In this document: positions 7 to 10,424 of the stretch, in pieces
Layout: every line of letters begins with the position of its first letter
Numbering within the stretch: the first letter of the stretch is position 1
Source of the DNA: an uncultured Acidimicrobiales bacterium
Lineage (GTDB): Bacteria > Actinomycetota > Acidimicrobiia > Acidimicrobiales > Aldehydirespiratoraceae
Assembly: GCA_938091985.1 (NCBI GenBank)
Contig: CALKOE010000047.1
Span: 1 to 17,329, forward strand
Length of the DNA: 17,329 nt
Reading direction: 5' to 3'
The notes under the pieces: model-generated
Seen by the model: only the letters and a program-made list of their open reading frames with translations
Databases searched by the model: none
What the model was told of the DNA's origin: nothing
Made by a program: the position numbers and the translations under genes

Positions 7-909
7 TCAGGGGATCGGCGCCTCGGCCGGAGGCTCTCCGGCTGCGTCGAACGCCTCCTCCACATCGGAGTAGGTCAGCCGGCCGCGGGTACGGCGAGAG
101 TCGAGGTCTGACTGACGAAGCCGGGCGGTGTGGCGGAAGAACCGAATGGCGATCAGTGTCCAGAGGTAGAAGCCACCGATGACCTTCATGATCGCCCCGG
201 CGAGCTGTTGGTCGTCGGTTGGGTTGATACCCCACACGTTGGTGTCGTTGTCGTAGGCGTCGTAGACGACACCTTCGGCGAACGTGAGCCACCCGGCCGG
301 CACCGTGGGCACGATCGACATCAAGAAGAGATACACCAGCTTTCCGGGCTCGCTGAGGTGCACTTCCTTCAGCGGACCCAACACGGGGAACCACATCAGA
401 AGCGCTGAGAAGAACACGCCGAGATGGATCAGGTAGTGGAACGAACCGTTCTCGGCGCTCGTGTTCACCACGGCGGCCCAGTGGGTGAGGATCTGGAAGA
501 CGTTGAAGATCACACCGGCGACAACCGGCTTGGTGAGGACCCGCAACACCTTCGAGGTGGCGCCGCCGTCGAGGACGAGCAGGCGGGCCAGCCATTCGGG
601 CATGGCGAGCAACAGCAGCGGCGGCACCATGAACGCGATGAGCAGGTGCTGCAGCATGTGGACCGAGTAGAGGTATTCCTCGGCAATGTCGTGGATCGGG
701 TAGTCGGCAGCGATCCACAGCAGAACCACGCCTGCGGCAAAGAACCGCTTCTGTGACGTGGTGACAATCGTTTGGCCCGCCGGAACCACGAGAGGACCGA
801 TCGAACGGGTCGCGTAGTAGCCGAGGGCGACGATGCCGCCGATCAACAGCCAAACCTCAGGGTGGGCCTGGAAGGCCCAGACGTTCACGGCGAAGAGACT
901 CGCCGTCAT
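7..909 (-). CDS. ctaG: Cytochrome c oxidase assembly protein CtaG (caa3_CtaG family)
   Basis: A 300-residue polytopic membrane protein of the caa3_CtaG family, which in Bacillus is needed to assemble the CuA/CuB centres of caa3 oxidase and is thought to deliver copper. The sequence shows about seven hydrophobic segments and a set of family-typical histidines likely to bind copper: H73, H84 and H88 (segment VHMLQH) and H158/H162 (FHYLIH), followed by SALLMWFPVLGP and, near the C-terminus, the conserved DQQLAGAIMK segment. I chose the ATG at 907-909 because it lies 4 nt after the stop of the upstream COX4 gene; an in-frame extension to 966 would overlap that gene. No clear Shine-Dalgarno is seen, so translation is probably coupled. 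It is the last gene of the oxidase operon visible here; nothing but 6 nt lies beyond it in the window. Confidence 0.9.
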   Translation of the reverse strand: MTASLFAVNVWAFQAHPEVWLLIGGIVALGYYATRSIGPLVVPAGQTIVTTSQKRFFAAGVVLLWIAADYPIHDIAEEYLYSVHMLQHLLIAFMVPPLLLLAMPEWLARLLVLDGGATSKVLRVLTKPVVAGVIFNVFQILTHWAAVVNTSAENGSFHYLIHLGVFFSALLMWFPVLGPLKEVHLSEPGKLVYLFLMSIVPTVPAGWLTFAEGVVYDAYDNDTNVWGINPTDDQQLAGAIMKVIGGFYLWTLIAIRFFRHTARLRQSDLDSRRTRGRLTYSDVEEAFDAAGEPPAEAPIP

Positions 910-913
910 GACA

Positions 914-1258
914 TCAGGCCCAGAACTCGAATGCCGAAAGGAAGATGCAGTACACCGCGGTGGCAAGGACGAGTCCAGCGACGAACATGCGACCGAAGAT
1001 CGGGTTGTCGAAGCGCAGATGCATGAACCACGTGGCCACGAGATAGAACTTCACGACCATCAAGAACATGAGGGTCGCGATGGTGACCGAGTTGTTCTCG
1101 AAGAACGGCAGCGCGGATTCGAAGTACGTGAGCACTTCGATCCCGGTGAAGAGCGCCAGGATCAGCGCGATCTTGATGTAGACCCAGTCTGATGGGTGCT
1201 CGTGGGCGCCGTGGTCCTCGTCGTGCTCGAGGTGAGTTTCGGTGACGGTGTCAGTCAT
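914..1258 (-). CDS. ctaF: Cytochrome c oxidase subunit IV (COX4_pro type)
   Basis: A 114-residue protein with three predicted membrane helices, matching the prokaryotic COX4 family, a small non-catalytic subunit of caa3/aa3 oxidases. The diagnostic part is the second-helix region KFYLVATWFMHLRFD. The N-terminus (about residues 8-22) is rich in His, Asp and Glu (LEHDEDHGAHEH), a feature shared with three other products of this operon. The start is the ATG at 1256-1258, five bases behind an AGAGGGA ribosome-binding site; a longer reading frame to 1315 would run into ctaE and lacks such a site. It lies 11 nt downstream of ctaE and 4 nt upstream of ctaG. The operon also encodes a second, different subunit-IV-like protein at 5210-6073. 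Confidence 0.88.
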   Translation of the reverse strand: MTDTVTETHLEHDEDHGAHEHPSDWVYIKIALILALFTGIEVLTYFESALPFFENNSVTIATLMFLMVVKFYLVATWFMHLRFDNPIFGRMFVAGLVLATAVYCIFLSAFEFWA

Positions 1259-1263
1259 GTCGG

Positions 1264-1270
1264 TCCCTCT
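1264..1270 (-). promoter_or_regulatory. Ribosome-binding site of the COX4 gene
   Basis: AGAGGGA on the minus strand, 5 nt before the ATG at 1258. It overlaps the last base of the ctaE stop codon and fixes the start of the COX4 gene. Confidence 0.6.
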
Positions 1271-1905
1271 CAGTCGACTGGGATCAGGTAGATGACGGTG
1301 AAGATGAAGATCCACACCACATCCACGAAGTGCCAGTAGAGGCCGACGATCTCGACCGTTTCGGTGTGTTTGGGCGTCAACTTGCCCTGTTTCGACGCAA
1401 CGTAGAGCGACATCAGCATCAAGATGCCGAGGCTCACGTGGACGCCGTGGAAGCCGGTCAGCGTGAAGAACGCCGAGCTTGCCGGGTTGTGGGTGAAGCC
1501 CACGCCCTCACGGATGAAGCCGGTGAACTCATAGACCTGACCGCCGATGAAGACACTGCCGAGCATGGCTGTTGAGAGCAACCAGGCCCTCGTGGCGGCG
1601 TTGTCGCCTCGGGTGAGCGCCGACAGCGCCAGCACCATGGTGAGCGAGCTCATCAGGAGCACGAACGAACTCACCGAGGTGAACGGAATGTCGAAGATGT
1701 CGGTGGGGATCGCCGTGTTGTCCGGTCCCGGACCGCGACGCGTCTTGTAGAGCAGATACGTCGAGATCAGACCGCCGAAGAGCAGACACTCAGAGCCCAG
1801 GAACGTCCACATCGCCAACTTGGTGTTGGAGATGCCGGTGGACGTCGCATGGTGCTCGTCGTGGTCATCGTGGGTGTCGGGGCTGTCGATCGTTGCGGTT
1901 GCCAT
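1270..1905 (-). CDS. ctaE: Cytochrome c oxidase subunit III (five-helix form)
   Basis: Subunit III of the caa3 oxidase, 211 residues, with five membrane helices (about 30-53, 78-98, 106-126, 144-170, 184-209); this is the short bacterial form lacking the first two helices of the mitochondrial protein. Conserved family residues are present: E39 in LGSECLLFGG, H153 and H156 in GFHGVHVSLG, and Y190-W191-H192 with D195 in YWHFVDVVWIF. These serve as the reference against which the degenerate paralog at 6081-6671 can be read. The N-terminal 20 residues are His/Asp-rich (THDDHDEHH). The start is taken as ATG 1903-1905, 9 nt behind GGAGG; a GTG six bases earlier is only 3 nt from that site. It begins 2 nt after the ctaD stop. 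Confidence 0.93.
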   Translation of the reverse strand: MATATIDSPDTHDDHDEHHATSTGISNTKLAMWTFLGSECLLFGGLISTYLLYKTRRGPGPDNTAIPTDIFDIPFTSVSSFVLLMSSLTMVLALSALTRGDNAATRAWLLSTAMLGSVFIGGQVYEFTGFIREGVGFTHNPASSAFFTLTGFHGVHVSLGILMLMSLYVASKQGKLTPKHTETVEIVGLYWHFVDVVWIFIFTVIYLIPVD

Positions 1906-1907
1906 GA

Positions 1908-3917
1908 TCACTCGCCTCCTTCGGCGCCGGAAGTGACGGCTTCGGGCTCAGCGGCGTCGTCGTCGCCACCGTCGTCGTCATCGTGGTGGTCGTCGTGGCC
2001 GTGGTCGGCATCGGGATCGTCGACAGGCTCGAGAGCCCACGAGTAGAGCGCGAGACCGGTGAGTGCGCCTCCGAGGACGCAGAGCCACAGGTTGAAGATC
2101 AAGCCGTAGCCGATGAGGGGCAGGCCGAGCGCCAACACCAGTGGCCAGAACGACGGAGCCGGAAGGTGAACACCCTCGGCCGAACCGTCTTGGGCCACTT
2201 CCTCGATTGTGGCGATGCGCACGACACGCTTGTTCTCGTCGTAGCCGTACTTGCGATGCCACCACTCGTCTTCGCTCTCGACCAGGGGGACCTCGTCGAA
2301 GTTGTGCTCCGGGGTCGGCGACGGGATCATCCACTCGAGCGAGCGGGCGTCCCACGGGTCGGGACCCGGTGCCGGCAGGTTCGGCGCATCTCGGCGTGAA
2401 CGCCACACGTTGTAGAAGAAGACCAGCACCGACAGGGCGATGATGAAGGCGCCGATCGTGGCGACCATGTTCCACAGCTCGAAGCCGAAGCCCGGTGAGT
2501 AGGTGTCGATTCGGCGGCTCATGCCTTGCAAGCCGAGCACGTGCATCGGGCCGAACGTGAGGTTGAAGCCGATGAGCATGATCCAGAAGTGGACCTTGCC
2601 CCAGGTCTCGTTGAGCATGTGGCCGAAGATCTTCGGCCACCAGAAGTAGAGGCCGCCCATGAGACCGAGCACGCCGCCACCGAAGATCACATAGTGGAAG
2701 TGCGCCACGATGTAGTAGGTGTCGGTCTGCTGGGTGTCGGCCGGAGCCAGAGCGTGGGTGACGCCGGAGAGGCCACCGATGGTGAACATGGCGACGGCGC
2801 CCACGGCAAAGAGCATGGGTGTCGAGAAGAGCAGCTTTCCGCCCCACATCGTGGCGAGCCAGTTGAGGATCTTCACACCGGTCGGCACGGCGATGAACAT
2901 CGTGGACAGCGAGAACGCCGCCACGGAGAACGGGCCGATGCCGGAGACGAACATGTGGTGGGCCCACACGCCCCAGCCCATGAAGCCGATGGCGATGCCC
3001 GAGAACACCATGAACGAGTAGCCGAAGATGGGCTTGCGGCTGAACGTCGGGATGATCTCCGAGATGATGCCGAAGCTCGGCAAGATGATGATGTACACCT
3101 CAGGGTGTCCGAAGATCCAAAACAAGTGCTGCCACAGAAGTGGATCACCGCCGGTCGCCGGATTGAAGAACTGCGCATCGAACAGCCGGTCGAACATCAG
3201 CAGGAAGAGCGCCACCGTGATGACGGGCAGGGCGAACAGCAGCAGGAACTGGGTGACCAGCAGCATCCAGGTGAGGATGGGCATGCGGAACAAGCTCATG
3301 CCGGGCGCACGCATGTTGAGCACCGTCACGATCAGGTTGACCGCACCGAGCAGCGAAGCGATACCGGCGATCTGCAGACCGATGGCGTAGAAGTCGACGC
3401 CGTGGCTCGGGGAGAACGCAAGACCGCTGTTGGGCGAGTAGCAGAACCAACCACAGTCGGCGCCGCCGCCGCCCACGATCCATGAGCTGTTGAGGAAGAT
3501 CGCGCCTGAGATCCAGATCCAGAACGACAGGGCGTTGAGACGAGGGAACGCCACGTCTCGCGCGCCGATCTGGAGCGGAATCAGGTAGTTCGCGAAGGCC
3601 GCAGCCAGCGGCATGATGAACAGGAACACCATGGTGACGCCGTGCATCGTGAAGACCTGGTTGTAGACCTCGGCCGACAGCAGCTGCCCCTCGGGGGCTG
3701 CGAGCTGCCAACGGATCAGCAGGGCCTCGATGCCGCCCACGACGAAGAAGAACATCGCCGAAACGCCATACATGATGCCGATCTTCTTGTGATCGACGGT
3801 GCTCAACCAGTCACGCCAGCCGTTGCCACCCTGGGGTCGCGTGAGACCACCGAGCGGACGCTCGGCGGTGGCGGCTTCGCCCGATGTCAGGGCGAGGGGT
3901 TCTTCGATGATCGCCAT
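1908..3917 (-). CDS. ctaD: Cytochrome c oxidase subunit I (caa3 type, A1 heme-copper oxidase)
   Basis: Catalytic subunit, 669 residues, reducing O2 to water and pumping protons across the cytoplasmic membrane. All metal ligands are visible: H92 (TMHGVT) and H408 for heme a, H406 (AHFHYV) for heme a3, H271 (FGHPEVY) and H320-H321 (WAHHMF) for CuB, plus Y275, the tyrosine normally cross-linked to the CuB histidine. E273 in GHPEVY marks the A1 class, and K349 (PTGVKI) sits at the K-channel position. After the twelve-helix core, about residues 586-632 add two more hydrophobic helices, and the last 37 residues are an Asp/His-rich tail (DHGHDDHHDDDDGG). The start is ATG 3915-3917, 7 nt behind GGAGGTG and 1 nt after the ctaC stop. 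It lies between ctaC and ctaE in the operon. Confidence 0.97.
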   Translation of the reverse strand: MAIIEEPLALTSGEAATAERPLGGLTRPQGGNGWRDWLSTVDHKKIGIMYGVSAMFFFVVGGIEALLIRWQLAAPEGQLLSAEVYNQVFTMHGVTMVFLFIMPLAAAFANYLIPLQIGARDVAFPRLNALSFWIWISGAIFLNSSWIVGGGGADCGWFCYSPNSGLAFSPSHGVDFYAIGLQIAGIASLLGAVNLIVTVLNMRAPGMSLFRMPILTWMLLVTQFLLLFALPVITVALFLLMFDRLFDAQFFNPATGGDPLLWQHLFWIFGHPEVYIIILPSFGIISEIIPTFSRKPIFGYSFMVFSGIAIGFMGWGVWAHHMFVSGIGPFSVAAFSLSTMFIAVPTGVKILNWLATMWGGKLLFSTPMLFAVGAVAMFTIGGLSGVTHALAPADTQQTDTYYIVAHFHYVIFGGGVLGLMGGLYFWWPKIFGHMLNETWGKVHFWIMLIGFNLTFGPMHVLGLQGMSRRIDTYSPGFGFELWNMVATIGAFIIALSVLVFFYNVWRSRRDAPNLPAPGPDPWDARSLEWMIPSPTPEHNFDEVPLVESEDEWWHRKYGYDENKRVVRIATIEEVAQDGSAEGVHLPAPSFWPLVLALGLPLIGYGLIFNLWLCVLGGALTGLALYSWALEPVDDPDADHGHDDHHDDDDGGDDDAAEPEAVTSGAEGGE
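1915..1919 (-). promoter_or_regulatory. Ribosome-binding site of ctaE
   Basis: GGAGG on the minus strand, inside the last codons of ctaD and 9 nt before the ATG at 1905. It favours that ATG over the upstream in-frame GTG at 1911. Confidence 0.6.
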
Positions 3918-3918
3918 C

Positions 3919-5208
3919 TCACTCCACCTCCGTGGCCGCAATGCGCTCATCTGTCGGGCGGGGGCCCAACGTCTCGAGGAATGCGATCACGTCATTGATC
4001 TGTCGTTCGGTCAGGTTGCGGTCCGGCATGCCTCTGGGCAGCTCACCGTCGGCGAGATTGTCGGCGAAGTTCGCCTTGATCGCGTCGGGATCTCGGATCC
4101 AGGCGGCGAGGTCGTCGCGGTTGAGCGAGCCGTCCTCGTCGTTGTAGAGGTTGAGGATGCCGCCGGCGAAGGTGGTGTTGTTCGCCAGGTGGGTCAGGTT
4201 CGGGGCGGAGCCGGAGACGACTTCCGCGCCGTCGTAGTCGAGATCGTTGAGGCCATCGACCAGGTGGCACGAGGCGCACTGGGTGACGAACACATCGAGA
4301 CCACGAAGCGCCGCACTCGCGTCGTCGGGCACCGAACCGGCGCCGGCTTCGCGATAGGAGTCGACATAGGGCTGCAGTTCAGCGTCGAACGTGGCCGGCG
4401 ACATCTGCATGTCGATCCAGTCCTGGAAGTCGGCCTCGGTCATCGCGATGGTCTGCATGCGCATCCGGCTGTGGGAAAGGCCGCAGAACTCGGTGCACTG
4501 GCCGAAGTAGACGCCGGGATCATCGGCTTCGATCTTCCACGGGGAGAATCGGCCCGGCACTGCATCACGCTTGCCGTTGAGGCGCGGAATCCAGTGGGAG
4601 TGGATGACATCTCGCGAGGTGATGATCAGATCGACCTCGACGCCGGTCGGAATGGCGAACTGGCCAGACGCGACGATGTCAGCCGGGGGCAGGTTGCTCG
4701 GGTCGTCGAGCATCGACGCGTCGAGATCGCCGGCATCGAGGTAGTAGCGGTATTCCCACCACCACTGCTGACCCACGACCACGATGGTCGGGTCCCAGAC
4801 GCGTGTCTCGCCGTCGACCTGGATCTCAACGGCGGCGGCTTCGTCGCGGTTGATCGAGACGTGGACGATGATCGTGAAGACCGCAACGATGGCCAAGACG
4901 ACAGCAGGCACGATCGTCCAGGTGATCTCGAGGGCATTGTTGTGGGAGATCTGCTCGGGGAACTCCTCGTCGCCCTCGTAGGAGCTGACCCGGTTCTTCA
5001 CCGCGAGCCAGAGCACGGCACCACAGACGGCCACCAGCACGACGCCGGCGATGATGAACACCCAAAAGGCGAGGTCGTAGATCTCGTCGGCCGTGCCGCT
5101 CTCGGGCTTCAGCGTGTCGAGCTCAGCGTCGCCGGCACAGCCCGCGAGCACGAGACCGAGCATGGCGACCACGCCTGCGCCGGGAAGCCGGCGCCGGAAC
5201 TTGAACAT
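3919..5208 (-). CDS. ctaC: Cytochrome c oxidase subunit II with CuA and fused cytochrome c
   Basis: Subunit II of a caa3 oxidase, 429 residues, passing electrons from cytochrome c to heme a. Residues 1-24 are a lipoprotein signal (lipobox LAGC, lipidated C24). Two membrane helices follow (about 45-70 and 95-117). The cupredoxin domain carries the CuA ligands H203 (DVIHSHW), C238, E240, C242, H246 and M249 in GQCTEFCGLSHSRM. A C-terminal class I cytochrome c domain (about 300-415) has the heme c motif C311-A-S-C314-H315 and a likely distal ligand M394 (PRGMPD). The fusion makes this the caa3 type, unlike the mycobacterial CtaC, which has no fused cytochrome c. The start at ATG 5206-5208 gives the signal peptide and lies 1 nt after the preceding stop; the open frame extends to 5307 but overlaps the upstream gene. 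Confidence 0.96.
   Translation of the reverse strand: MFKFRRRLPGAGVVAMLGLVLAGCAGDAELDTLKPESGTADEIYDLAFWVFIIAGVVLVAVCGAVLWLAVKNRVSSYEGDEEFPEQISHNNALEITWTIVPAVVLAIVAVFTIIVHVSINRDEAAAVEIQVDGETRVWDPTIVVVGQQWWWEYRYYLDAGDLDASMLDDPSNLPPADIVASGQFAIPTGVEVDLIITSRDVIHSHWIPRLNGKRDAVPGRFSPWKIEADDPGVYFGQCTEFCGLSHSRMRMQTIAMTEADFQDWIDMQMSPATFDAELQPYVDSYREAGAGSVPDDASAALRGLDVFVTQCASCHLVDGLNDLDYDGAEVVSGSAPNLTHLANNTTFAGGILNLYNDEDGSLNRDDLAAWIRDPDAIKANFADNLADGELPRGMPDRNLTERQINDVIAFLETLGPRPTDERIAATEVE
3925..3931 (-). promoter_or_regulatory. Ribosome-binding site of ctaD
   Basis: GGAGGTG on the minus strand within the final codons of ctaC, 7 nt before the ctaD ATG at 3917. It supports that start over the in-frame ATG-like position at 3950. 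Confidence 0.65.
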
Positions 5209-5209
5209 G

Positions 5210-6073
5210 TCACTCACCGTCTGTGTCTCCGTCAGTGTGTTCGGCGTCTTCATCACCGTCGTCTGAATGCGATTCGTCGTCGCCATGATCCTCGTCTGCT
5301 TCGTCATGGGTTTCCGAACCGTGGGTTTCGTGGGGTTCGAACTCGCGCTCGCCCTCGACTACCGCCCAGACACCGCCGCCGAGCACGGCGACAGCGACCA
5401 CCAGGCTGAGCCCGGCGACCACATGACGGTTGAACTTGAAGGCATCAGTGGCCGCAAGGACGCCAATGCCGAGAATCACCACGGCAACCACGCCGGCCAC
5501 GATGACCGCGCCGAGCTTCGAGCTGCTCAGCAGGATGCGCGAGATGGCCAGCACGCCGAGACCGACCACGACCGCACCAGCGGCGGGGATCTCGATGGGA
5601 GCCATGATTCGATTGCGCAAGGCCCGGTTGGCTACGGGGTCGCCCGTGGCTCGGTCGGCCCATGCATCCATGGTCCATGACACGGCGACAATCGCGACGA
5701 TGACGAGCCCGGTGACGAAGACCGCAGTGTTGAGCACCAGGCCCACGGCCATGGTGCCGACACCGAAGGCGGCCACGATGGGCCAGTGGCTGCCGGTGAC
5801 CGGCTGCGTCGGGGCAATGTCGTCGACACCCATGTAGTCGGCCTGATCGGCCGGGTCGGCGTCGCGGAAGAAGATCAGCGTGAGTGCCGTACCCATCGCG
5901 GTGACTCCGAGGCCGACGAGGAGGCCGTAGCCGACGTGTTCGCCGACCCCGCCCTTCCAGCCCAGCGAGACGGGGCCCATGTGGTTGCCACCTGAGGTGT
6001 AGCCGTAGAGGACACCGGCGGTCGCCAAAGCGACACCGATGCCGAAGAAGAACTTGAAGCCCGTTGTGAACAT
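5210..6073 (-). CDS. CtaF-like oxidase subunit with extra C-terminal membrane domain and acidic tail
   Basis: A 287-residue membrane protein with about seven helices (near 8-25, 46-68, 97-115, 116-134, 161-180, 187-207, 217-238) and an Asp/Glu/His-rich tail (240-287). The first ~140 residues resemble the actinobacterial oxidase subunit IV (mycobacterial CtaF) in layout: short start, first helix ending in LYGYTS, a glycine-rich second helix ending in FFRDAD, then SHWPIVAAFG opening the third helix and a fourth helix. This assignment rests on remembered family features and is moderate. Residues ~141-238 add three helices not expected of CtaF. Arg/Lys-rich loops 4-5 and 6-7 suggest a cytoplasmic N-terminus and an extracytoplasmic tail. 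The start is ATG 6071-6073, 7 nt after the COX3-like stop with GGGA just upstream. It precedes ctaC by 1 nt, so it is probably co-translated with the oxidase subunits. Confidence 0.7.
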   Translation of the reverse strand: MFTTGFKFFFGIGVALATAGVLYGYTSGGNHMGPVSLGWKGGVGEHVGYGLLVGLGVTAMGTALTLIFFRDADPADQADYMGVDDIAPTQPVTGSHWPIVAAFGVGTMAVGLVLNTAVFVTGLVIVAIVAVSWTMDAWADRATGDPVANRALRNRIMAPIEIPAAGAVVVGLGVLAISRILLSSSKLGAVIVAGVVAVVILGIGVLAATDAFKFNRHVVAGLSLVVAVAVLGGGVWAVVEGEREFEPHETHGSETHDEADEDHGDDESHSDDGDEDAEHTDGDTDGE

Positions 6074-6080
6074 CTGATCC

Positions 6081-6671
6081 CTACTTCGTGACGAAGATGA
6101 CGTACCAGGCGATCGCATACATGGCGACGACTGTGTTCCAGTAAAAAGCGGCTGCAGCGACCGAGTCGGCCTTGCGTGGCCCGAATTGTCCGATGAAGGC
6201 CCGCACGAAGGTGAGGGCGATGAATCCGACGGCGACGATCATGAAGGCGACGAACGTGCCGAGCACGACGAAGAACATGAACTGGCCGTTGGTCTCGGCC
6301 AGCGAGAACCCGGTGTCGTTCATGATGAACCAGAGTTGGTTGAACACCGATGCCCCGAAGAGACCCGACAACGCGAGGGCAACGAGGGCGTTGGTGCGAT
6401 CGTTGTTGTTGATCGCCTGCACGGCCCACTGCACGGTGAAGATCGACAGGATCAGTGTGGAGAAGATGAACCCGGACGGGCCGAGCTCGATCGTGCCGTC
6501 GGGGAACCACTCGGCGCCGGCGGAGCGAGCCGATGCGCGTTCGCTGACGTAGACGAGGACGACACCCAGGAAGGCCATGAAGGCCGCACCTGAGCCGAAC
6601 ATCGTGCCGACGAGAACCGTGCGGGGACGGGTGATCTCAGCAGACGGGAGTGCGGTGGTTGTGGTGGTCAT
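6081..6671 (-). CDS. Degenerate COX3-like membrane protein
   Basis: A 196-residue protein with five predicted helices in the spacing of the five-helix subunit III. Ungapped anchors to CtaE of this operon are visible in three places: TMFGSGAAF against TFLGSECLL, GQFMFFVVLG against GFHGVHVSLG, and YWNTVV against YWHFVD. At each, the family's signature residue is gone: E39 of CtaE becomes G28, H153 and H156 become F131 and F134, H192 becomes N180, D195 becomes V183. It is therefore a diverged heme-copper oxidase subunit III paralog that probably pairs with the COX1-like protein encoded directly upstream. Its ATG (6669-6671) abuts the TAG stop of that gene with no spacer, and its GGAGG lies inside that gene at 6680-6684. 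The frame is intact, so it is not an obvious pseudogene. Function is unknown. Confidence 0.8.
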   Translation of the reverse strand: MTTTTTALPSAEITRPRTVLVGTMFGSGAAFMAFLGVVLVYVSERASARSAGAEWFPDGTIELGPSGFIFSTLILSIFTVQWAVQAINNNDRTNALVALALSGLFGASVFNQLWFIMNDTGFSLAETNGQFMFFVVLGTFVAFMIVAVGFIALTFVRAFIGQFGPRKADSVAAAAFYWNTVVAMYAIAWYVIFVTK

Positions 6672-8336
6672 CTACGACTCCTCCCCCTCGTCAGCGGCTT
6701 CATCGGGCGAAATGTCGAGAAGCGGCGACTCAGAAGTGACAAGGGCAGGCGGCTCGGCGAAGTTGCCGGCGGGCGGTGGGGTGGCCGTCGCCCACTCGAG
6801 CGTGTGACCACTCCAGGGGTCGTCGGCACCGGTTTCACCCGAGCGCATCGCCTTCGCGAGCGAGGCAAGAAGGCCGAGGGCACCCAGTGCGATCAGCGCC
6901 ATGCCGAGCAGCGAAACAAGGTTGAGCACATCGGCGGCGTCTTCGGTCGGAGCGACCAGCGGGTTGTTGGCGGTGAGGAAGAAGCCGTTGATGAACTGGG
7001 CTCCACCGAGAAGGACCGCACCGAGCACGATCTCGGCCACGACCATGCGCCCCAACATCGGCGACAGTTCGTGGCCACCGATCTTCGGTGCCCAGAACCA
7101 GAGACCGGCGATTGCCGAGGCGATCGCAGCGAAGAGCACGAGGTTCATCACGCCGGCGACGGAGACGCGATCGCCGAGGTCGAGCGGCTGAATGACCCGG
7201 GCAACGCCAGCCGCAGTGCCGGCCAGGAGCAAAACGCCACCGCCGAGTGCGCCCAGCAGATGGGCGGGAGGCAAGCCGGCGACACGATCACGGCCACGGA
7301 ACACCGAGTCGGCGGCGCCGCCGATCGCCCCGAGAACCGGGAAGATCGCAGCGATACCGAAGGCGATGTAGACAAACTTCTCGTCGTAGCGGACCAACGC
7401 ATCGTTGGTTTCCTGGAAGTAGGGCTGCGCCCAGGCACCGACGGACAGCAGGCCGAAGAATCCGATGAGGCCGAGTGACAGCCCGTGACGAGCGCCGCGC
7501 ACGCCGGCGGCGACCGGAACGATCGAGCCGAGAATGCCGAGAACCGGAATGGCGAAGGCGTAGACCTGCGGCTGCTCGACAATCCAGGCGATCTGGCCGT
7601 AGATGCTGAGGTCGCCACTGAGGCCGCCACCAAAGGTGCCTGGCCCATTGTGGAGATCGACATACGCCACGAGAAGGTTCGCGAGCAGCACCGGAAGCGT
7701 GAGCATCCAGACGGCGCAGGCGACAAGCATCGACCAGGCGAAGAGCGGAGTGCGAAGCAGCGTCATGCCCTTGACCCGCATGGAGATCACCGTGGTGGCG
7801 ATGCACAGAGAGGCGAGCAAGAGCGACAGGACGACCATGCCCATACCGACAAGGGTGAGGGCAACGGCGTCGCGCTCATCTCCGCTGGCCCGGTCGACCG
7901 CACCCCACCCACCGTTGGCGAGGACTGCGGCGATCATGATGCCGGCACCGATGAGGAAGCCCCATACGGCGGACAGCGCGGCACGAGGGAACGCGATGTT
8001 GGTCGAACCGACCTGCATCGGCACGACGATTGTGGCCAGACCGATGAACAACGGCGCGGCGACGAGGAGCACGAGAGCGATGCGATAGAGCGCCCAGATC
8101 TGGAAGTAGGCGTTGTCGCCGCCGAAGATGTCGGTCGAGTCGGCATCGAGACGCTCGATCCCGAGCAGCACGCCGAGCACGAGGGCGCCGACGAGCAAGA
8201 GCACGCCTGATTGCAGCCAGATTCGGCCGATGCGCTTGTGATCCGTGGTGGTCAGGGACTCATAGAGCCCAGCCACCGCAGGAGAAGGGGCCGCCGAAGC
8301 AGTTTCGGTCGCCGGCGGTGAGTCGGTCATCGTCAT
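6672..8336 (-). CDS. COX1-like protein lacking all heme and copper ligands
   Basis: A 554-residue polytopic membrane protein clearly derived from heme-copper oxidase subunit I. It shares with CtaD the N-terminal TDHKRIG (VDHKKIG), an ungapped stretch ending AFPR, WI-x-x-x-P-x-VY, FW-x-PKI and the C-terminal DPW...LEW...NF pattern. Yet every metal ligand is replaced: heme a H92 and H408 of CtaD become Y84 and M397; heme a3 H406 becomes G395; CuB H271, H320 and H321 become Q255, Q304 and P305. E273 becomes Q257 and no K-channel lysine is evident, while the CuB-linked tyrosine (Y259) is kept. It should not be able to reduce oxygen. The frame is intact, with its own GGAGG 12 nt before ATG 8334-8336; an ATG at 8330 is the alternative start. 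It is the first gene of the operon, behind a 201-nt leader. A structural or regulatory partner of the caa3 oxidase is plausible but unproven. Confidence 0.88.
   Translation of the reverse strand: MTMTDSPPATETASAAPSPAVAGLYESLTTTDHKRIGRIWLQSGVLLLVGALVLGVLLGIERLDADSTDIFGGDNAYFQIWALYRIALVLLVAAPLFIGLATIVVPMQVGSTNIAFPRAALSAVWGFLIGAGIMIAAVLANGGWGAVDRASGDERDAVALTLVGMGMVVLSLLLASLCIATTVISMRVKGMTLLRTPLFAWSMLVACAVWMLTLPVLLANLLVAYVDLHNGPGTFGGGLSGDLSIYGQIAWIVEQPQVYAFAIPVLGILGSIVPVAAGVRGARHGLSLGLIGFFGLLSVGAWAQPYFQETNDALVRYDEKFVYIAFGIAAIFPVLGAIGGAADSVFRGRDRVAGLPPAHLLGALGGGVLLLAGTAAGVARVIQPLDLGDRVSVAGVMNLVLFAAIASAIAGLWFWAPKIGGHELSPMLGRMVVAEIVLGAVLLGGAQFINGFFLTANNPLVAPTEDAADVLNLVSLLGMALIALGALGLLASLAKAMRSGETGADDPWSGHTLEWATATPPPAGNFAEPPALVTSESPLLDISPDEAADEGEES
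6680..6684 (-). promoter_or_regulatory. Ribosome-binding site of the COX3-like gene
   Basis: GGAGG on the minus strand inside the last codons of the COX1-like gene, 8 nt before the ATG at 6671. It indicates that the small downstream gene is actively translated together with its neighbour. Confidence 0.6.
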
Positions 8337-8537: not shown

Positions 8538-9434
<897 letters not shown>

Positions 9435-9442
9435 AAGACGAA

Positions 9443-9448
9443 AGGCTA
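9443..9448 (-). promoter_or_regulatory. Candidate -10 element for leaderless ctaB
   Basis: TAGCCT on the minus strand fits the TANNNT pattern of actinobacterial -10 boxes and ends 8 nt before the GTG at 9434, so transcription could begin at or next to the start codon. No convincing -35 is seen. Confidence 0.4.
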
Positions 9449-9482
9449 ACGGCCGACAGGGCATCACCGCCCAACGGGGCCG

Positions 9483-9488: not shown

Positions 9489-9494
9489 TTGGTC

Positions 9495-10424
9495 GTGAGT
9501 CCGGCCCGTTACGTCTCCTTGACCCGCGCTGCGCTGTGGTCACTCACGATCATCGTGATCTCCGGCGGCGCCGTGCGACTGACCGGATCCGGGCTCGGAT
9601 GTTCGGACTGGCCGAACTGCGAGCAGGACCAGCTCGTGTCCGACTTCGAGTATCACGGCATGATCGAGTTCGGAAACCGCATGTTCACCGGCGTGGTCAC
9701 GATCGCGGTGGTCGCCGCGGTGCTCGGCTCACTTCGACGCACTCCCCGTCGCGCCGACCTGATCCGGTTGTCGTGGGGCCTGGTGGCCGGGGTCGTCGCC
9801 CAGATCATTCTCGGCGGTCTGCTCGTGAAGACGGAGCTCGACCCACGGTTCACAATGGGGCACTTCCTCCTCTCGATGGTGCTGTTGTGGAACGCAACCG
9901 TGCTCATGCACCGAGCCGGAATCGGCGATGGACCGTTCTTCAGCGGCGGATGGGCCGACGACCACGACCGGGGCGAAGACGACAAGCACTTCATGCGACG
10001 ACTCACCCGCGGCGTCATGGCCGCCGGTGCAATCGTGTTGGTGATCGGCACGATCGTGACCGGATCAGGACCCCACTCGGGCAGCGACGAGGCCGAAGTG
10101 GCCGAGCGTTTGCCGTTCCTCGTTCGCGATGTGACCCGTATTCACAGCATCACCGCGATCGCGCTGCTCCTCGGTGTTGCGTTCGTCGGGTTCGAGGCCC
10201 ATCGACGGAACCTGACCAACGTCCGCCGCTCGGCGCTGACGGTGCTCGGGCTCGTCGTCGCCCAGGGCGTGGTCGGCTACTGGCAGTACTTCGCCGGTGT
10301 GCCCGTGCTGCTCGTGGCGGTCCACATCACGCTCGCGTCGATCACCTGGATCCACATCGTTCGGTTGGATCTCGAGGCGACGCTCATCAATGCCCCGGCC
10401 GACGTCAGGCTCGTGGCGCCATGA
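9495..10424 (+). CDS. ctaA: Heme A synthase (COX15/CtaA family)
   Basis: A 309-residue protein with eight predicted helices that converts heme O to heme A for the oxidase. Visible signatures are the paired cysteines C36 and C42 (GLGCSDWPNC), the glutamate E58 within IEFGNR, and histidines H54, H123 (MGHFLL), H217 (RIHSIT) and H277 (AVHITL) at heme-ligand positions of the two four-helix halves. In the common ExxHR motif the histidine is N61 here; I recall this as usual for actinobacterial members. Between the halves (about 143-170) is a charged loop. The start is the GTG at 9495; a TTG at 9489 is in frame but overlaps the putative promoter region. It is divergent from ctaB and overlaps clpS by 4 nt (ATGA). 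Confidence 0.92.
   Translation: MSPARYVSLTRAALWSLTIIVISGGAVRLTGSGLGCSDWPNCEQDQLVSDFEYHGMIEFGNRMFTGVVTIAVVAAVLGSLRRTPRRADLIRLSWGLVAGVVAQIILGGLLVKTELDPRFTMGHFLLSMVLLWNATVLMHRAGIGDGPFFSGGWADDHDRGEDDKHFMRRLTRGVMAAGAIVLVIGTIVTGSGPHSGSDEAEVAERLPFLVRDVTRIHSITAIALLLGVAFVGFEAHRRNLTNVRRSALTVLGLVVAQGVVGYWQYFAGVPVLLVAVHITLASITWIHIVRLDLEATLINAPADVRLVAP

Follow-up and report, generated by a model that had tools for sequence, protein, structure and literature searches.

The stretch of DNA analysed here (the window) is one entire contig of 17,329 nucleotides, CALKOE010000047.1, from the genome of an uncultured Acidimicrobiales bacterium (GCA_938091985.1; 66% complete, 507 contigs). Its caa3-type cytochrome oxidase operon encodes, besides the catalytic COX1 subunit CtaD, a second COX1 protein, here called PARA, in which all six metal-binding histidines are replaced. 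PARA is probably a pseudoenzyme subunit of the oxidase of its own operon, namely the structural half of an asymmetric complex, standing to CtaD as CydB stands to CydA in cytochrome bd. The superfamily is customarily defined by the heme and CuB ligands of COX1; cofactor-free paralogs of respiratory subunits are known, and we know of none reported for COX1.

The PARA frame is intact: it lies on the minus strand (8336..6672), runs from ATG to TAG over 554 codons and carries a ribosome-binding site of its own, with GGAGG upstream of the start. The Pfam COX1 profile (PF00115) matches residues 35-478 at 6.5e-36 (124.6 bits; cut-off 34.8), the structure is predicted with good confidence to be a COX1 fold, and a second search returned oxidase COX1 chains as best matches. 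In fold, length, Pfam family and the N-terminal DHK and C-terminal DPW..LEW..NF motifs, both visible in the alignment, PARA is like an A-type oxidase subunit I (CtaD/CoxA), as it is in the operon context of COX2, COX3, COX4, CtaB and CtaG; it is unlike one in the six metal ligands and in the D, E and K proton-path residues, all of which are replaced. The NCBIfam equivalog cut-offs for CtaD_CoxA and cyt_aa3_Actin are missed by PARA (205 against 670.75 and 199 against 880 bits). Identity as a NorB-type nitric oxide reductase was considered and discarded, as PARA has zero ligand histidines and its best-matching families are CtaD types.

PARA of the window contains only six histidines (33, 229, 284, 359, 422 and 511), none at a ligand site and none within five residues of one. 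Aligned with the CtaD of the same operon, Y84 takes the place of the heme a ligand in transmembrane helix (TM) 2, Q255, Q304 and P305 those of the CuB ligands, and, in TM10, V396 and N398 those of the heme a3 and heme a ligands. Read in the order heme a TM2, CuB-1, Glu, Tyr, CuB-2, CuB-3, heme a3, heme a TM10, D132, N139 and K362, the signature is YQQYQPVNNAA in PARA and HHEYHHHHDNK in the operon's CtaD, which has lost none of its six ligands and none of the residues of the D and K channels. The D-channel Asp has become N113, the Glu of the E286 type Q257, and the K-channel Lys is lost; the active-site Tyr of the HPEVY motif is kept as Y259. The initial annotation of this DNA, made from the sequence alone, had described the frame, its ribosome-binding site, the two terminal motifs and the sixfold loss correctly, and the profile search it proposed bears out the COX1 assignment. 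It had named G395 and M397 as the TM10 replacements, where the alignment gives V396 and N398, and was right on the other four; the shift is immaterial, because every histidine of the protein is more than five residues away from each ligand position.

The replacements are in part common property of the family. A homolog search with PARA returned 395 proteins at E<=0.001, the lower of which may be ordinary COX1. Among the best 120 of these (PARA of the window and 119 homologs), Q255 and Q304 are present in 120/120 and P305 in 119/120, a pattern that chance does not explain; the columns of Y84 (Y 106, H 9, others 5) and N398 (N 96, H 9, others 15) do vary, which corrects the initial picture. A heme-a-only site in close relatives was sought and dropped; no row among those listed has histidine at both TM2 and TM10. 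In a wider alignment the full CtaD signature is exact in 134 of 137 CtaD rows, and the CuB triad occurs in none of the 107 PARA rows, also when a histidine within three residues of each position is allowed; these are rows and not species, some organisms being present twice (e.g. L055/L105, L056/L101, L058/L112 and L052/L130). Here CuB-1 is Q in 64 and CuB-2 in 78 rows, the active-site Tyr position is Y in 58, F in 29 and another residue in 20, and most rows have lost the residues of the D, E and K paths. A new metal site shared at the old ligand positions was also looked for and rejected, since the replacing letters differ between lineages.

PARA is embedded in the oxidase operon. Its features in the window are as follows.

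PARA, 6672..8336, minus strand: COX1 paralog of 554 amino acids, predicted 12-helix COX1 fold, the six heme and CuB histidines absent.
C3L, 6081..6671, minus strand: COX3-like subunit of 196 amino acids, starting at the base after the PARA stop.
U287, 5210..6073, minus strand: membrane protein of 287 amino acids with seven long predicted helices; cupredoxin domain absent in the window.
ctaC, 3919..5307, minus strand: Pfam COX2, COX2_TM and Cytochrom_C, i.e. COX2 with a fused cytochrome c, caa3-type.
ctaD, 1908..3950, minus strand: catalytic COX1, all ligands kept, with a C-terminal extension.
ctaE, 1270..1911, minus strand: COX3 (Pfam).
cox4, 914..1315, minus strand: COX4_pro small subunit (Pfam).
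ctaG, 7..966, minus strand: caa3 assembly factor (Pfam).
ctaB, 8538..9467, minus strand: heme o synthase (Pfam, NCBIfam).
ctaA, 9489..10424, plus strand: heme a synthase, divergent (Pfam).

The minus-strand order is thus ctaB, PARA, C3L, U287, ctaC, ctaD, ctaE, cox4, ctaG, with ctaA divergent from ctaB; from PARA to ctaG neighbouring genes either overlap or are no more than 7 bases apart, and ctaB lies 201 bases upstream of PARA. The cytochrome c domain fused in ctaC makes the oxidase of the window one of the caa3 type. The longest ctaC frame shares 98 bases with that of U287, so the true ctaC start is probably internal, and internal starts are also probable for ctaG, cox4, ctaE and ctaB, whose frames open with GTG or TTG. 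Scans for promoters and terminators gave no signal above chance. Towards the end of the contig (14883-17329, minus strand), translations inspected by eye suggest an ABC transporter ATPase and permease-like pair and a substrate-binding-like protein.

Linkage to the caa3 operon extends throughout the order. The arrangement ctaB-PARA-C3L-U287-ctaC-ctaD-ctaE-cox4-ctaG recurs in the regions fetched and in named records of Acidimicrobiales, Acidimicrobiaceae, Microthrix, Microthrixaceae and others; the named records that have the trio include Candidatus Microthrix, IMCC26207 and one under the label Ferrithrix thermotolerans. PARA is found in 102 of 105 loci with a caa3-type CtaD or U287 (the exceptions are L083, which is not from the order, and L220 and L221, where the locus stops at U287), and in none of the 20 fetched loci of the order around another type of CtaD. 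Across the class, some COX1-type match, true CtaD included, is found in 277 of 296 genomes. As the synteny loci were mostly chosen by PARA matches, a survey of 138 genomes of the order provides the less biased test of linkage: a caa3-type CtaD (matches of at least 838 bits, plus three contig-end fragments at 67-71% identity) occurs in 84, U287 in 90 and both in 83. In seven genomes U287 is present but no caa3-type CtaD is listed (loci L212, L216, L218, L223 and L224; genomes G333 and G355); in L212, L218 and L224 the contig stops in or before ctaD. A caa3-type CtaD without a U287 match occurs in G309 (80% complete). Two of the exceptional loci have features of their own: in L216 (G317) ctaD is split between two overlapping frames, owing to a frameshift or a sequencing error, and L223 (G308) has ctaB, PARA, C3L and a U287 of 144 amino acids, with no ctaC or ctaD downstream in the available stretch, possibly through relocation of the oxidase genes or a break in the assembly.

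PARA is under purifying selection. The ratio of non-synonymous to synonymous substitution rates (dN/dS; Nei-Gojobori with Jukes-Cantor correction, start codons not curated) is 0.055-0.27 in 16 of 18 PARA pairs, the two most divergent pairs giving 0.40 and 0.57, with a median of about 0.15; that of CtaD is 0.018-0.27 in 14 pairs, median about 0.075. PARA is therefore constrained, more loosely than CtaD. Relative to CtaD, the most constrained parts are TM1-5, the short loops after TM2 and TM4, the periplasmic loop 3-4 and the C-terminal tail; the least constrained are TM6-12 with their surrounding loops, home of most redox ligands, as expected if contacts were kept and the catalytic core was not; the constrained surface would face the COX3-like subunit. 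R118, R187, P106, W415, G190 and G110 are present in 54 of 54 PARA rows. That PARA is a retained, non-catalytic subunit and no recently decayed gene, as had been proposed, is supported by losses common to its homologs, synteny across the order and dN/dS far below 1.

Relatives with partial sites point to how such a protein may have arisen. Among the 107 PARA rows, 74 have none of the heme histidines, eight have all three (L051, L089, L208-L211, L213 and L214), nine have the two heme a histidines only and 16 have other single or paired relics. Histidine-bearing homologs, which might have spoken for recent decay, thus exist, but they are basal in the tree and none has the CuB triad. In L051 (7920-9551) and its relatives the heme a and a3 ligands are kept, the CuB ligands are replaced by Arg and, mostly, by Ala and Gly, and the D-channel Asp by Arg. 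A search from one three-ligand member returned 341 homologs; among the 120 of these that were listed, CuB-1 is Arg in 120/120, the TM2 histidine of heme a is present in 119 (one gap), that of TM10 in 120 and that of heme a3 in 103, D132 is replaced by Arg in 118, and 102 combine all three heme ligands with no CuB histidine. The constancy of the Arg and of the other replacements argues that this apparently heme-bearing form is itself a conserved protein and not a passing stage.

In a tree of 97 rows, built with the ligand columns left out and including oddly composed rows, PARA forms one clade with support 100. Within it a heme-a-only pair branches first, then a clade with the three-ligand rows, and there follows a large ligand-free clade with heme-a-only rows near its base. 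Partial-site relatives being basal, and none having the CuB triad, the loss of ligands appears old and stepwise; in the simplest reading CuB would have been lost first and once, heme a3 next and heme a last, a direction short of proof since the outgroup does not form a clean side of the branch and many inner branches are weak. The trees lend no support to PARA being a plain tandem copy of the ctaD in this operon, although long branches may cause that outcome.

C3L and U287 travel with PARA as a trio. C3L matches Pfam COX3 at 1.6e-4 (22.1 bits, slightly under the cut-off of 23.8), and NCBIfam aa3_CtaE_Actin at 3.6e-8, far below its cut-off; against Pfam COX3 its relatives in L051 and L089 score 29.8 and 19.5 bits. 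The N-terminal half of U287 is weakly similar to COX IV (PF12270) in two of 21 members (best E 0.0013), and U287 likewise to the COX4 chain of PDB entry 9wcx (E 0.68). Four weak U287 profile matches fall inside C-terminal extensions of CtaD, and the extension of the window's CtaD itself matches PF12270 slightly under the cut-off. The C-terminal half of U287 is homologous to a protein of three TMs and a cupredoxin domain (3TM-cupredoxin) encoded after ctaG in caa3 operons elsewhere in Actinobacteriota; there it is a separate gene that keeps its cupredoxin, while U287 is extended by an N-terminal half and, in the window, ends in a tail that is acidic and His-rich in place of the cupredoxin. In genomes of the class outside the order, 54 of 54 match the U287 profile only from position 137 on, and phylum matches outside the order do so from position 132 on; U287 therefore looks like a 3TM-cupredoxin protein with an added N-terminal half. 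In 10 of 12 outside loci fetched (L231-L238, L240 and L242) the match is a separate 3TM-cupredoxin gene after ctaG and there is no PARA; L234 apparently has two cupredoxin repeats. In the two loci tested with Pfam, U287 retains a C-terminal cupredoxin domain (1.6e-11 and 7.6e-9), as do 110 of 117 homologs of the L208 protein (precomputed annotation), and the cupredoxin motif of U287 is present in all eight three-ligand rows, five of eight readable heme-a-only rows and two of 86 readable other rows.

From these elements the following picture may be drawn. PARA, C3L and U287 would replicate subunits I, III and probably IV of the oxidase without their cofactors, packing against the catalytic CtaCDE core as a second, structural half (or else against a partner from complex III). 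The ancestral trio would still have bound hemes without CuB and carried a cupredoxin, and hence probably served at first as a side module for the transfer of electrons; in the line that led to the window, the redox parts would then have been lost and the scaffold kept. In a more specific and tentative form, the caa3 oxidases of Acidimicrobiales would be asymmetric hetero-oligomers whose second half was once a copper-less heme a/a3 electron module fed by a cupredoxin of its own, demetallated stepwise (CuB replaced by Arg first, heme a3 lost next, heme a and the cupredoxin going last) down to the metal-free, still-selected subunit of the window.

The closest parallel is CydB, which like PARA is a paralog of the catalytic subunit, binds no cofactors and has stayed in the operon of that subunit. 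In Corynebacterium glutamicum, CydB is termed structural and without cofactors, and CydA and CydB are thought to derive from a duplication, according to the passages concerned of two papers (PMC9846854, PMC8324918). In fold and family CydB is unrelated to PARA, and cytochrome bd has no copied third subunit; in addition, the partnership of PARA with CtaD is inferred only. This is the first of several points that count against an asymmetric complex. PARA evolves faster than CtaD, by about twofold in median dN/dS, and its identity across the order is 35-40%; its contacts are therefore not tightly fixed. In the trees PARA branches apart from the CtaD of the same operon instead of nesting inside it. 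The likeness of U287 to COX IV is weak, its structural model is of low confidence (predicted local distance difference test, pLDDT, 71.5) and a fold search with that model gave no clear match. Lastly, the link between heme ligands and cupredoxin fails a test on independent pairs (two to three pairs) and is suggestive only, because the tree shows about three changes in each of the two traits.

Other explanations of PARA have been weighed. The trio might be a dedicated assembly platform, PARA being a mimic of apo-COX1 that holds CtaC, the products of ctaB or ctaG, or CtaE during the insertion of heme a and CuB into CtaD, and then leaves the mature enzyme. A cofactor-free mimic would suit this role, and so would the location of the trio between ctaB and ctaC, in a gene run that closes with ctaG and has the divergent ctaA beside it. 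We regard it as rather unlikely: the heme a histidines and the cupredoxin of the three-ligand relatives suggest a redox subunit as ancestor and not a chaperone, the co-duplication with a COX3-like partner resembles a complex, and caa3 operons elsewhere in the class and phylum manage without PARA (the 10 outside loci above, and also L239 and L241).

Less likely still, and by our estimate improbable, is a metal-free active job, whereby the emptied COX1 cavity would serve as a quinone or lipid site, as a proton or ion path or as a docking arm for an electron donor. Along this line, Q255, Q304, H284, R280, D148, E154 and D227 are invariant or near-invariant in 33 rows of nearer homologs, beyond what a bare scaffold would need; across the order, however, such residues vary, as the CuB-1 and CuB-2 columns of the wider alignment illustrate, and the channel residues are mostly gone. 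Decay, with PARA kept through linkage only, is strongly disfavoured: the loss of ligands is indeed mosaic and lineage-specific, and evolution faster than in CtaD, but frames are open throughout a deep order, dN/dS is well below 1, linkage is near-universal and fold-level residues are invariant in all 54 rows. Misaligned histidines, or a chimeric or mis-assembled sequence, are refuted by the empty surroundings of the sites in PARA of the window, by the lack in all 107 rows of histidines within three residues of all three CuB positions, and by hundreds of independent records of the same family (the 395 homologs above, with the reservation made there). The structural half of an asymmetric oxidase thus remains the preferred explanation.

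A second, independent case of a COX1 homolog without ligand histidines beside a caa3 oxidase may exist in L239 and L244, to judge from alignments. Directly upstream of ctaC in L239 (9090-11219, minus strand) lies a CcoN-like COX1 homolog fused to a 3TM-cupredoxin part, which when aligned with a solved CcoN has other letters at all six ligand positions; its 41% relative in L244 also lacks the ligand histidines and carries a CxxCH stretch at its C-terminus. Like PARA, these are members of the COX1 superfamily without ligand histidines, with a cupredoxin or cytochrome c domain beside or near them; their origin in the C family (cbb3) and in another lineage of the class marks them as independent.

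Searches of the full-text literature returned no description of the PARA family, whose absence from print is not thereby proven. The closest paper on how COX evolved refers a single time to Acidimicrobiaceae in its accessible passages, in connection with a type of CtaA (PMC8239418), and a classifier of heme-copper oxidases is described as having dropped sequences without the six histidines (PMC3084760); to surveys of that kind, as described there, a PARA-like family would be invisible. NCBI names the relatives 'cbb3-type cytochrome c oxidase subunit I', which is misleading for the ligand-free and the heme-bearing forms alike. The latter, to our knowledge, belong to no named family; they share with PARA of the window the clade and the position between ctaB and a COX3-like gene, and differ from it in their heme a and a3 histidines, the Arg at CuB-1 and a U287 with cupredoxin.

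To sum up, an order-wide family keeps a COX1 protein without its sites, and its apparent intermediate stages are still living. It can thus be tested how many of its metals a respiratory enzyme may lose and yet be useful, and whether these bacteria, abundant in water and soil, have caa3 oxidases that form asymmetric complexes. The relatives without CuB but apparently with hemes offer another and perhaps better object of study, as they may reveal what the heme A pair does without copper; if stepwise demetallation is true, that stage would be a class of the heme-copper superfamily without CuB, in which heme A is used otherwise than to turn O2 into water.
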